Part shown: in pieces, positions 5,641 through 8,362 of the stretch
Layout of the letters: each line of letters begins with the position of its first letter
Position numbering within the stretch: the stretch's first letter is position 1
Assembly: GCA_009901575.1 (NCBI GenBank)
Contig: WXYP01000003.1
Span: 620,001-684,000, forward strand
DNA length: 64,000 nt
Reading direction: 5' to 3'
Source of the DNA: Flavobacteriaceae bacterium R38
Lineage (GTDB): Bacteria > Bacteroidota > Bacteroidia > Flavobacteriales > Flavobacteriaceae
Made by a program: the position numbers and the translations under genes
Notes under the pieces: generated by a model
Told to the model about the DNA's origin: nothing
Database searches by the model: none
What the model saw: the letters and a program-made list of their open reading frames with translations, nothing else

Positions 5641-5794
5641 ATCAAAGTAAGCAGATAATAATAGCCGAGTGTGATGATAAAGGTAATTTATTGACATAAA
5701 TAAGTATTATGAATTACTGTTGATCTTGAAAAGTAATGTTGAATATTCAATAATTGATTAGCCCTGTTTGACTGTGAATGATATTTACTTTAAA

Positions 5795-7495
5795 ATGAAT
5801 TTTAAAAAGTTTCTCCTCTCAATCATAATCCTGCTATTTCAATTGATATTATCAAGTGGAGTTTATGGTCAAGAAAAAGAAGCTAACGAAACTGGAGAAC
5901 TTGAAAAGCTATCACTTCTACAACTAATAGATGTATTAGATACTATAAAACTTTCTACACCTGAGGGAGAAGCAAAAATTTTCAAAGAAACCCTTCTCAA
6001 TGATGAAAAAAACTTTGTGAAAGGAAGGAAACTTATGGCTATAGGGTTCTTCTTTTTCAGAAAGAAAGAATATAAAAAATGTGTTGAATACTTAGATGAA
6101 GCTATTGAATTCTTCGAAGAACCTGAAGATAATAAACAACTATACGCTATAAATATTTTAAAAGGAAATGCTTATTTATATAAATGGCAGCATGTTGATG
6201 CACTTAATGCTTATTATAAGGCTTTAGAACTTAATCGTAGTACAATAAAAGATGATGTTAATGAAGCAAGAGCGAGTTTGAATATTGCCATAGTTCGTAG
6301 AAAAATGGGACAATTTGATCAAGCAAAAAAAGTCTATAAAAACACCTTAAAGTTTATTGAGAAAAGTGAAGTAAAGAATAGTAAAATTCATATGAACGTT
6401 CTGTCTGAGGTAAGCTTTTTGTATATTGACCTCGAAGAGTATGATTCGGTACTACAATATTCAGATAAAGGGATCAGGATAAGTGAATTATATAATTATA
6501 GAGAGTTTAAATCAAATTTTTATACAGCAAAAGGTATAGTGTTCCAATATGAAGAGGAATATGATAAAGCATTAGAATATTTATTAGAGGCTGAAGATAT
6601 TTTGTTTAAAGGGAATATTCCAGAGAAAAGATATTTGATTAACATAGCCTATTTTATAGCAAAGTGTTTCTATGAACAACAACACTATGAAAAAGCTATA
6701 AATAAGATGCACGAAGTTATAAATTTTATAGATGAAGAAGAATTTAATGCTGAAGCGATTGATCTTTATAATCTAATGGCAAAGTCTAATAAGGCTTTAG
6801 AGCATGAAAATCAAGCTATTTATTGGTATGAAAAAGCGATTCAATTAGACAAACGATCTGATAGAGAAAAAGATGTTACTGTAAATAGAATCTTTAATAA
6901 AGAAAAAGAAGATTTAAATGAAGAGATAGGGGTGTTAACAAGGACGAGGTTTAAGGTAGTCTTAGCATTGTTTTTTTCTTTCTTGATTTTAATTAGTATA
7001 TCAATTGTATACTTTAAAAAGCAAAAAACAAATAAGTTAATATTTAATGAGTTGATTGAAAAGATTAACAATTTAGAATCTGTAAAAAAAGAAACCCGGA
7101 TAACTTTAGTAGATTCCAAAACAGTTAATATTGATGATGAAAAGATTAATAAAGTCCTAAAAGGATTAGAAAGATTAGAAGATCAGGAATATTTTTTAAA
7201 TATAGATTGTAACCTTCGTTCAATAGCAAAAAAAGTAAAGACCAATACTACGTATTTATCTAAAATCATTAACGATCATAAAAAGAAGAATTTTAACAAT
7301 TATATCAATGATTTGCGAATTGACTATGTTCTTAAACGATTGAAAAATGACAAAAAATTTCGATTATTCTCTATCAAATCCATTGCTTCCGAAATAGGAT
7401 ATAAGAGTGACTATTCTTTTGCTAAACATTTCAAGGCGAAGACGGGCCTTAATCCATCTTATTATATCAGAGAAATCAATAGTTTGGAAGAATAA
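5795..7495 (+). CDS. TPR / transmembrane / AraC-type HTH regulator
   Basis: A membrane-anchored one-piece sensor-regulator of a type common in Flavobacteria. The start chosen is ATG 5795 (MNFKKFLL), which gives a clean signal sequence ending SSGVYGQ; the frame is open to a TTG at 5768. About residues 50-375 are helical TPR-like repeats (AINILKGNAYLYKWQHVDAL and similar), predicted periplasmic. One membrane helix follows (VVLALFFSFLILISISIVYF), then a short linker and a C-terminal AraC DNA-binding domain with two helix-turn-helix units (SIAKKVKTNTTYLSKIIND and SIASEIGYKSDYSFAKHF). Two RiPP-precursor-like genes lie immediately downstream, so it may control them; that is inference. A perfect 36-bp palindromic terminator follows. 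Confidence 0.9.
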   Translation: MNFKKFLLSIIILLFQLILSSGVYGQEKEANETGELEKLSLLQLIDVLDTIKLSTPEGEAKIFKETLLNDEKNFVKGRKLMAIGFFFFRKKEYKKCVEYLDEAIEFFEEPEDNKQLYAINILKGNAYLYKWQHVDALNAYYKALELNRSTIKDDVNEARASLNIAIVRRKMGQFDQAKKVYKNTLKFIEKSEVKNSKIHMNVLSEVSFLYIDLEEYDSVLQYSDKGIRISELYNYREFKSNFYTAKGIVFQYEEEYDKALEYLLEAEDILFKGNIPEKRYLINIAYFIAKCFYEQQHYEKAINKMHEVINFIDEEEFNAEAIDLYNLMAKSNKALEHENQAIYWYEKAIQLDKRSDREKDVTVNRIFNKEKEDLNEEIGVLTRTRFKVVLALFFSFLILISISIVYFKKQKTNKLIFNELIEKINNLESVKKETRITLVDSKTVNIDDEKINKVLKGLERLEDQEYFLNIDCNLRSIAKKVKTNTTYLSKIINDHKKKNFNNYINDLRIDYVLKRLKNDKKFRLFSIKSIASEIGYKSDYSFAKHFKAKTGLNPSYYIREINSLEE

Positions 7496-7504
7496 AACTT
7501 AAGA

Positions 7505-7540
7505 TTAAGAACCCTATTTTGATCAAAATAGGGTTCTTAA
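7505..7540. terminator. Perfect 16-bp-arm palindrome, probable bidirectional terminator
   Basis: Arms 7505-7520 and 7525-7540 (ttaagaaccctatttt and its exact complement) flank GATC, ten bases after the AraC-type gene's stop codon. A/T tracts on both sides suit intrinsic termination. It isolates the regulator from the peptide gene at 7604. Confidence 0.75.
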
Positions 7541-7603
7541 TTTATGATTTGTTTTTTGCTGCAAGTACATTTAGAAAAATTAATCTAAAGAAAATAAGTT
7601 ATT

Positions 7604-7792
7604 ATGAGAAAAATCGATAACAGAAAGATGCGCTTAAAGAAAATAACAATAGCAAAAATAGACCCTAAGAAAATTTATGGAGGTTTTGTAAGCCCTACTG
7701 GAATAACAGAAGATGAAGCTTGTGAAACAGTAGTTTCTGAAGATGAAACGTCAAACAAAATTTTTATTGAACCTAATGCTAATAATAATTGA
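7604..7792 (+). CDS. RiPP precursor-like peptide (class I lanthipeptide-type leader), 62 aa
   Basis: A 62-residue peptide whose leader RKMRLKKITIAKIDPKKIYG ends in Gly-Gly. It aligns without gaps to the leader of the next peptide (7989), sharing the K-[ML]-x-L-K-K-x-x-I-A-x-[IM]-[DN]-x-[KR]-x-[IV]-x-G-G pattern of Bacteroidota 'natural product precursor'/class I lanthipeptide leaders. The presumed core after GG (FVSPTGITEDEACETVVSED...) has one Cys, several Thr/Ser and an Asn-rich tail, so it is cysteine-poor for a lanthipeptide and may be a different or degenerate product. No LanB/LanC, radical-SAM or C39 peptidase gene is in the window. Monocistronic: it is bounded by terminators at 7505 and 7830. 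Confidence 0.7.
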   Translation: MRKIDNRKMRLKKITIAKIDPKKIYGGFVSPTGITEDEACETVVSEDETSNKIFIEPNANNN

Positions 7793-7829
7793 TAAGTAAT
7801 AATTTTTCCCTTCTTTTCTGGAGATATCT

Positions 7830-7859
7830 GATGCCTTATTTTAATTAAAATAGGGCATC
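7830..7859 (+). terminator. Intrinsic terminator after the 7604 peptide
   Basis: gatgcc...ggcatc arms with an AT-rich inner stem (tattttaattaaaata) are followed by ttgtttttt. It lies 38 bp after the peptide's stop codon. Confidence 0.75.
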
Positions 7860-7988
7860 TTTGTTTTTTCCCTTCTTTACCTCAACTTAATTTTAGTGTG
7901 TCGCATAGTACTATTGACACCAGAGGGAAAAACCGAAAACCTTATTAAAAAAGAGTAGGTATTTACAATCACTTAACTATTTAAGATT

Positions 7989-8207
7989 ATGAAAAAAAAG
8001 TCATTAAATTCTAAGAAATTATTATTAAAAAAATCTGCTATTGCTTCTATGAATGAAAGAACAGTAAAAGGAGGAGGAGCGCAAACAGCAACATTCCAGA
8101 CGATTTGTGGAGCTGCTTGTGGTGAAACAGAATTCTTTACAAAATGTAACGGAGCGAATCAATGCGGACTTTTTAATACACAGTTTGATGGAACTTGTGG
8201 ATTCTAA
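7989..8207 (+). CDS. RiPP precursor, cysteine-rich core (class I lanthipeptide-type), 72 aa
   Basis: A 72-residue peptide with leader KKLLLKKSAIASMNERTVKG ending at Gly-Gly-Gly and a core of about 41 residues containing five Cys (in TIC, AAC, TKC, NQC, GTC contexts), seven Thr and no Ser. Cys/Thr interspersion such as TATFQTICGAAC and the leader pattern are what is known for Bacteroidota class I lanthipeptide precursors, exported after cleavage at the double glycine by a C39-type peptidase. The modifying and export genes must be elsewhere or absent. It is transcribed alone, with a strong terminator 30 bp downstream. The predicted product is extracellular; activity is unknown. The gene is A-rich at its 5' end with no clear Shine-Dalgarno, normal for this phylum. 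Confidence 0.8.
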   Translation: MKKKSLNSKKLLLKKSAIASMNERTVKGGGAQTATFQTICGAACGETEFFTKCNGANQCGLFNTQFDGTCGF

Positions 8208-8237
8208 TAGTCAAAATTGAAAAAGAATGAATTGAAA

Positions 8238-8261
8238 ACCTGTGAAATTATTCACAGGTTT
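8238..8261 (+). terminator. Intrinsic terminator after the cysteine-rich RiPP precursor
   Basis: aacctgtgaa (8238-8247) and ttcacaggtt (8252-8261) form a 10-bp perfect stem with a 4-nt loop, followed by a run of T. Confidence 0.85.
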
Positions 8262-8362
8262 TTTTATGCCTAATGATAAGAGATAAAAATGTTATTTTTC
8301 ACTTATTACCCCTTCATTTTTATAGTTGCTTTATCTTTACAGTATAGATTATTATTATAAAA

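Follow-up and report, generated by a model that had tools for sequence, protein, structure and literature searches.

In cyanobacteria, the prochlorosins and synechococsins are made by one tolerant enzyme (ProcM, SyncM) from tens of precursors that share a leader and differ in their cores, many of them encoded far from the enzyme; 29 and 79 precursors are named in the relevant passages of PMC10783134 and PMC7268733. These are class II systems, with a LanM synthetase and a Nif11 leader. In Bacteroidota, class I lanthipeptides (Walker et al. 2020) and the pinensins have been described with an LxLxKx5L...GG leader, a C39 protease, and a split LanB, the last being known from pinensin and thiopeptides (PMC7268733). 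As that survey covered seven genes on either side of lanC, dispersed precursors were beyond its reach, and its main text does not contain the words AraC, tetratricopeptide, or TPR. TPR-type genes have been reported in two RiPP clusters of Bacteroidales, in an article that also recalls pheromone-binding TPR regulators elsewhere; the clusters in its relevant sections contain radical-SAM or LanM enzymes and lack LanB, and no sensor-precursor pairing is described there (PMC10352776). In pneumococcus, TprA2/PhrA2 and TprA/PhrA are RRNPP-type TPR regulators with an adjacent cognate gene for a separate short signal peptide, and they control class II lanthipeptide genes (PMC5436883). The leader type with its GG, split LanB, and C39 in Bacteroidetes, dispersed class II prochlorosins, TPR genes in RiPP clusters, and a TPR regulator plus peptide controlling lanthipeptides are thus already on record in the parts of these papers cited. 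We found neither dispersed class I precursors nor pairs of a TPR-AraC sensor and a lanthipeptide precursor described in the open-access literature that was searched.

The window analyzed here is the whole stretch of 64,000 nucleotides at C5:620001-684000 of the 11-contig, 3.94-Mb genome of Flavobacteriaceae bacterium R38 (label G000). It contains two small peptide genes behind a gene for a TPR-AraC sensor, with the following features.

5768-7495, + strand: TPR-AraC membrane sensor; in order, a hydrophobic stretch at the N terminus, a TPR superhelix, a single transmembrane helix, a K/R-rich segment, and a C-terminal AraC-type HTH
7504-7541, no strand: perfect palindrome of 38 bp, its centre at about -81 relative to the ORF1 start
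7604-7792, + strand: ORF1, 62 aa, precursor of the sensor-paired kind ("R-type"); 35-aa core behind a leader whose GG is at residues 26-27
7830-7859, + strand: terminator-like hairpin after ORF1, with a core that matches the upstream palindrome over most of its length (TATTTTnATnAAAATAGGG)
7989-8207, + strand: ORF2, 72 aa, precursor of the class I lanthipeptide type, Cys rich ("S-type"); 43-aa core behind a leader whose GG is at residues 28-29
8235-8262, + strand: likely ORF2 terminator, made up of a 12-bp inverted repeat and a T-run after it

Both peptides start with a K-rich leader that ends in GG and carries an LxLxKx5L-type motif (LLLKK-SAIAS-M in ORF2; MRLKK-ITIAK-I in ORF1, with conservative changes at the L positions), and both cores contain Cys plus Ser/Thr. 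An earlier reading of the sequence alone had described them as two precursors with the same leader and very different cores, the second with five Cys and many Thr and the first with a single Cys. The counts agree (five Cys and seven Thr in the ORF2 core; one Cys, four Thr, and three Ser in that of ORF1), and the common leader was recovered by two leader profiles from which both genes were left out, one of 19 sensor-paired leaders and another of 41 other leaders. ORF1 and ORF2 were the top two among the 384 ORFs of the window with these profiles: the sensor-paired model gave ORF1 21.0 bits, ORF2 10.4, and the third-best ORF 5.6, while the other model gave ORF2 28.2 bits, ORF1 17.5, and the third-best ORF 5.8. 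The best of 10,000 leader-shuffled copies reached 12.1 and 12.2 bits, so that each gene exceeded all shuffles with the model of its own kind, and ORF2 (10.4 bits) did not do so with the sensor-paired model. As independent profiles rank both genes at the top and above the shuffles, their leader likeness is not due to chance. A genome-wide profile search, again leaving both out, recovered ORF2 at an E value of 4.6e-5 and ORF1 at 0.0018; neither passes the NCBIfam model NF038153 (cut-off of 22 bits), with 15.8 bits for ORF2 and no match for ORF1. The cores are unlike because the two genes belong to different kinds, sensor paired and Cys rich, and ORF2 has core relatives at C6:274716 (CGxTxxFTxCNGxxQCxL in common, z of 6.6) and C6:277924 (z of 5.4).

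The window itself codes for no modifying enzyme, as had been noted from the sequence, and the genome has a single set of them, located on contig C3 together with one precursor.

C3:33878-36088: C39-ABC exporter
C3:36089-37411: HlyD
C3:37554-37805: precursor with the same leader, beside lanB
C3:38018-38917: elimination protein, matching TIGR03891
C3:38919-41159: LanB, matching the solved dehydratases 5ehk and 9g04
C3:41198-42418: LanC, 406 aa

LanB is thus split into two proteins, a dehydratase and an elimination protein. The latter contains the motifs RYGDP..HLR, ERYG, and HMLMNR, and LanC contains WCYG and CHG, which we take to be the active-site motifs of both enzymes. The whole genome has one Lant_dehydr_N protein (LanB), one LANC_like protein (LanC), and one C39 peptidase above the cut-off, a second C39 match (E value of 0.0097) falling below it. 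The lanB locus carries no TPR-AraC sensor. The sequence-only reading, which had proposed a trans-acting machinery elsewhere, staked itself on the genome encoding a lanthionine synthase or another RiPP enzyme. LanB, LanC, and C39 are present at one locus, in the same genome and not in the same cluster, and would act in trans on the window genes, for which the term "orphan" is no longer appropriate. Among other enzyme types, radical-SAM (SPASM) modification was discarded, as no SPASM protein was found in the genome at an E value of ≤10, and so were LanM, LanL, and LanKC, as the LANC_like search yields one protein only, beside a separate lanB.

A genome search for further KKLxLxK-type leaders, suggested in the same reading, showed that the two genes belong to a much larger collection. 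NF038153, the class I leader model L1a, gives 37 matches at an E value of ≤10, eight of them above its cut-off. Profile A1, built from 39 leaders that do not include ORF1 and ORF2, finds 58 peptide genes at E values of <0.002 on eight contigs, with the next match at 0.66; about two-thirds of the 58 had served to train the profile, and the rest are new. All 58 read as a leader plus a short core in an open frame with a start codon (one GTG, at C4:286517, and one doubtful, at C7:2980, which has a long odd N terminus; the ORF1 start was set at 627604 instead of the automatic 627628). One more precursor, at C8:182960, lies behind a sensor and was found by the sensor-paired profile A2, bringing the total to about 59. 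In the 56 peptides used for core counts (two of the 58, lacking a clear GG cut, were left out), the cores contain 11.7% Cys and 14.0% Thr, versus 0.6% and 5.5% in background ORFs, although the peptides had been selected by leader only. Leaders were more similar than cores in 1,535 of 1,540 pairs (mean identity of 0.46 versus 0.20). Thus, as in the prochlorosins and synechococsins, there are tens of precursors with one leader and diverse cores, many of them far from one synthetase set; unlike there, the enzymes are class I (LanB plus LanC), the leader is of the KKLxLxK type and not Nif11, there is no class II LanM, part of the genes are paired with a sensor, and the host belongs to the Bacteroidota. 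Genome mining restricted to the surroundings of lanC would recover just one of these genes.

The sensor upstream of ORF1 has Pfam TPR and HTH_18 matches, and its start is likelier the ATG at 5795 than the TTG at 5768. It is one of 22 full-length members in the genome (E values of <1e-20), with the next matches, at >1e-12, covering the HTH part only. Mean identity between sensors is 25% for the TPR parts and 50% for the HTH parts. Hydropathy profiles of 28 sensors show in every case a strongly hydrophobic segment in the middle of the protein with basic residues after it, in the expected range in 27 and at residue 323 in one shorter protein. The N-terminal hydrophobic segment is above threshold in 16 of the 28 and appears weaker by eye in the remainder. 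This layout should place the TPR part in the periplasm and the HTH in the cytoplasm. An AlphaFold model of the window sensor, built from two sequences (pLDDT of 76.5), predicts helical repeats at residues 82 to 360 and a long helix at 371 to 434. The TPR domain and the adjacent peptide gene are as in RRNPP systems, while the receptor is not the soluble cytoplasmic kind: unlike TprA, it is predicted to be anchored in the membrane and ends in an AraC HTH, and the lanthipeptide-type leader is found on the paired peptide itself. Another TPR protein, with a LuxR-type (GerE) HTH, is encoded at C6:296858-298756 (locus L043), just upstream of the precursor at C6:299044, and is perhaps a second sensor type.

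The proximity of the sensor gene, pointed out from the sequence alone, turned out to be a recurrent arrangement. ORF1 starts 109 bp behind the sensor stop, and 15 of the 22 sensors have a peptide gene on the same strand 83 to 131 bp after the stop; C4:160391 has one at 335 bp. Counting A1-defined peptides only, 15 of 22 have one 50 to 350 bp downstream on the same strand, while random placing of the peptide clusters gave a mean of 0.05 paired sensors and a maximum of 3 in 20,000 permutations. Similarly, 21 of 22 have a leader gene no more than 3 kb away (random mean of 1.3, maximum of 11 in 5,000). Six sensors have no peptide of the ORF1/ORF2 leader type within 350 bp. Three of these (C4:54428, C8:175327, and C8:179433) precede other sensors, no peptide was found behind C5:401294 and C7:110822, and C4:52598 is accompanied by two GG peptides of another leader (MLKDILKLKGVTELEKKQQ..GG; C4:51500-52597, L040), for the first of which NCBIfam gives nothing. 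A dispersed repeat-like sequence (..GCGAGCGTAGCGCGGCAATC..) is found at C5:399600-401293 and upstream of C7:110822, beside the two sensors for which the search for a peptide found none.

At the level of sequence, the analysis establishes the genes, a single enzyme set, a common leader family, and the pairing, which is conserved in other genera (below). From these, we consider it rather probable that the peptides are dispersed class I lanthipeptide-type precursors served in trans and that a paired sensor and its peptide form a functional unit. The single enzyme set (split LanB, LanC, C39-ABC exporter, and HlyD) would recognize the common KKLxLxK...GG leader; LanB would dehydrate the variable cores in trans, LanC would close rings where Cys allows, and C39 would cut at the GG and export the peptide. 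The mature ORF1 core, periplasmic or outside, would most likely act on the periplasmic TPR domain of the neighboring sensor, and the cytoplasmic AraC domain would then switch peptide genes in the neighborhood, ORF1 and ORF2 among them. On this ligand step taken by itself, that the mature ORF1 peptide acts on its sensor, we are almost evenly divided, leaning slightly against it. More tentative, and to our judgment rather doubtful, is an extension in which the sensors are a family of membrane receptors, each paired with a small pheromone of its own that LanB has modified (dehydrated or ringed), forming about 15 private channels that share one enzyme set and drive the genome-wide Cys-rich lanthipeptide library through related palindromic operators. 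If the proposal of trans-served precursors is true, the prochlorosin way of life, in which a tolerant enzyme set serves precursors dispersed in large numbers, has also arisen in a LanB system of class I, and the genome is a natural test bed for LanB tolerance. About a quarter of its precursor genes lie right behind a gene for what is presumed to be their own sensor, which would also give a starting point for asking what purpose a peptide library serves.

A serious alternative, which we place somewhat on the doubtful side, is that modification in trans is real and the sensor reads another cue, the pairing reflecting simple local gene control and not peptide sensing. Regulators often adjoin what they control. 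In Mantel tests over 25 sensor-peptide pairs, distances between TPR parts did not correlate with those between cores (rho of 0.04, P = 0.30; HTH-core, -0.02, P = 0.58), an absence of coevolution signal that counts against the neighboring TPR domain reading the peptide; correlations with the leader were 0.16 for TPR and 0.17 for HTH (P = 0.04 for both). The 19 pairs of the genus gave 0.06 for TPR-core (P = 0.26) and 0.35 for HTH-leader (P = 0.001). The predicted TPR superhelix resembles that of Rap and NprR, with a different topology and HTH type, and LGN (Z of 26.3, root mean square deviation [RMSD] of 5.1, 313 residues aligned) ranks above RapI (24.6, 4.1, 273) and NprR (23.4, 5.6, 323), so that the likeness seems that of a generic fold and we gave the structure no functional weight. 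What local control explains less well is the specificity and persistence of the pairs. By profile scores, sensor-paired peptides have their own leader subtype, and a peptidase gene follows in six units. Pairing at 80 to 131 bp recurs in seven genus labels (g1, g11, g27, g46, g51, g85, and g102), in five of them inside LanB clusters. The order LanB, elimination protein, sensor, and peptide is found in G011, G046, G051, G085, and G027, with the peptide 80 to 122 bp behind (the paired peptides of G051 and G027 are known as profile matches only); G121 has a sensor plus peptide beside its LanB cluster, and pairs distant from LanB exist in G102 and G027. In the fetched stretches of G001, four of six sensors are paired, and the other two precede a paired one. 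Overall, a sensor occurs in the fetched stretch of 8 of 13 LanB loci (12 genomes). A separate contig scan found one in 1 of 14 LanB loci (Aquimarina, L111, peptide 157 bp behind), with several of the others being short contigs or having other gene orders.

Several dyads lie around ORF1. Near-identical palindromic cores (the TATTTTnATnAAAATAGGG sequence) flank ORF1 at 7512-7533 and 7834-7855, with four matches on both strands versus 0.11 expected. The first belongs to the palindrome at 7504-7541, which also scores as a terminator and may be operator-like and/or the terminator of the sensor gene. The second is within the hairpin after ORF1, which, with the inverted repeat and T-run after ORF2 (absent from the terminator scan), accords with the earlier suggestion that each gene has its own terminator. 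Palindromes appear at about -70 to -110 upstream of several sensor-paired peptides, that of ORF1 being the most perfect. A dyad seen by eye, GTGTCGCATAGTACTATTGACAC, is located at 7898-7920 of the window, some 70 to 90 bp before ORF2, where other peptide genes have palindromes. The palindrome TTYATRAA was found in 13 of 19 sensor-paired upstream regions (random expectation of 2.1), in 14 of 43 others (4.4), and in 16 of 244 control genes (21.9), with P values that are too favorable because the motif was spotted by eye and then counted on the same sequences; for 2 of the 13, the sole match is in the sensor coding end or at -26. It is absent upstream of ORF1 and ORF2, and a stricter form searched over the whole genome gave 9 sites versus 10 for the reversed control, hence no excess. 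Four of these nine are followed by a peptide gene within 130 bp, and the sole perfect one (C6:530739) is near no known peptide gene. Dyad symmetry was higher in the paired upstream regions than in controls (mean of 9.1 versus 7.5, P = 3e-5, with ORF1 having the top score) in a stretch chosen after looking, and in the other 43 it did not differ from that in controls (P = 0.11). One gene without upstream DNA, C5:318748, was dropped from both counts (43 of 44 used). We regard a common operator of the peptide genes as a lead that these counts provide.

It is also quite possible, although the balance tilts the other way, that ORF1 and the other sensor-paired peptides undergo dehydration by LanB and cleavage by a protease without forming lanthionine rings, with only the Cys-rich kind (e.g., ORF2) being lanthipeptides. 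LanC was found in the fetched stretch of only one of eight sensor-bearing LanB loci (G121), not in the other seven nor in L111, versus four of five loci without a sensor (G019, G136 twice, and G155; not G102), which makes rings on sensor-paired peptides doubtful. The six paired cores read from other genera are short, with zero to two Cys, like ORF1. Peptidases of the S8 or S9 families occur by the pair or the cluster in G027, G046, G051, G085, G102, G001, G121, G177, and L111. In L111, G121, and G177, this is an S9 oligopeptidase by the cluster, and in six units, a subtilase (S8) or a relative follows the paired peptide, as listed here.

G001, C1:1332230-1333918: subtilase or relative, behind one of its pairs
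G102, C1:1585365-1587059: subtilase or relative, behind the dispersed pair
G046, C8:1344432-1346114: subtilase or relative
G051, C2:82599-84233: subtilase or relative
G085, C4:21161-22801: subtilase or relative
G027, C6:3601-4509: subtilase or relative

This arrangement fits a unit for making a mature peptide, and the gene content suggests that in the clusters of other genera, the paired peptide is probably dehydrated and protease cut, with rings not a given. However, the only LanB of the R38 genome adjoins LanC, many of its paired cores hold several Cys, and the LanC count covers fetched stretches only, in G102 LanC being ca. 280 kb from its LanB. No relative of the S8/S9 peptidases was found near the sensors in the fetched stretches of R38. 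Judging from its gene content, the single LanB, with LanC, must serve both peptide kinds in this genome. As the pair elsewhere usually comes with a peptidase and without a nearby LanC, the ORF1 product may be dehydrated and not ringed, so a ringed lanthipeptide is, from these comparisons, less sure for ORF1 than for ORF2.

That the leaders belong to a LanB system at all was assessed in 198 genomes (R38 included), of which 17 have LanB. A1 leaders (E value of ≤0.001) occur in 10 genomes, 9 of them with LanB, and paired-type leaders (profile A2, E value of ≤0.01) occur in 13, 12 of them with LanB. Either kind is present in 14 of 17 LanB genomes versus 2 of 181 others (Fisher P = 8e-17, or 8e-15 when both members of the genus are excluded, values to be read knowing that related genomes are not independent). 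The two exceptions are G144 and G054; the match in G054 is in a 306-aa frame and looks false, and it was kept in the tests. No leader match was found in three LanB genomes (G040, G147, and G163). In G144, where LanB was not found, a peptide with a KTLKLSKLSLKK..GG leader is encoded at C25:5151-5318 (L159). The association bears on another reading, in which these are double-glycine microcin-like peptides, cut and exported by C39 and mostly left without LanB modification, with disulfides instead. Many Cys-rich cores would suit disulfides, and GG peptides of another leader do lie behind the sensor C4:52598. Nevertheless, we find this unlikely, since the leaders track LanB over the 198 genomes, adjoin lanB in several genomes, and fit the LxLxKx5L motif given for class I LanAs of Bacteroidetes in the corresponding part of PMC7268733.

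Large precursor numbers are confined to one genus among the 198 genomes, the others having one to five matches per profile; multigenome searches undercount (42 matches for R38 versus 58 in the single-genome search). The only relative listed as the same genus, Leptobacterium flavescens KCTC 22160 (G001), has one LanB and 18 leader matches at E values of <0.002, with the 19th at 0.05. That most dispersed copies are decaying duplicates, with only the lanB-side precursor and a few others being made, would agree with this restriction to one genus and with some near-identical tandem copies (C9:98493 and 99102), yet it is very improbable, as all 58 genes keep open frames with a start codon, the cores keep their Cys and Thr, and L. 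flavescens has its own 18 matches. Within the collection, C8:196250 and C4:286517 (L131 and L045) combine unlike leader types with a near-identical C-terminal core (SDPYTDETAGCSNQCPTTGPG..IEILY), which suggests recombination between leaders and cores. Internal tandem repeats are also seen in the cores of C5:182962 and C3:811574 (NTCANTCANTC... and CGTNNCGTNDCGT...) and are a possible route of core growth.
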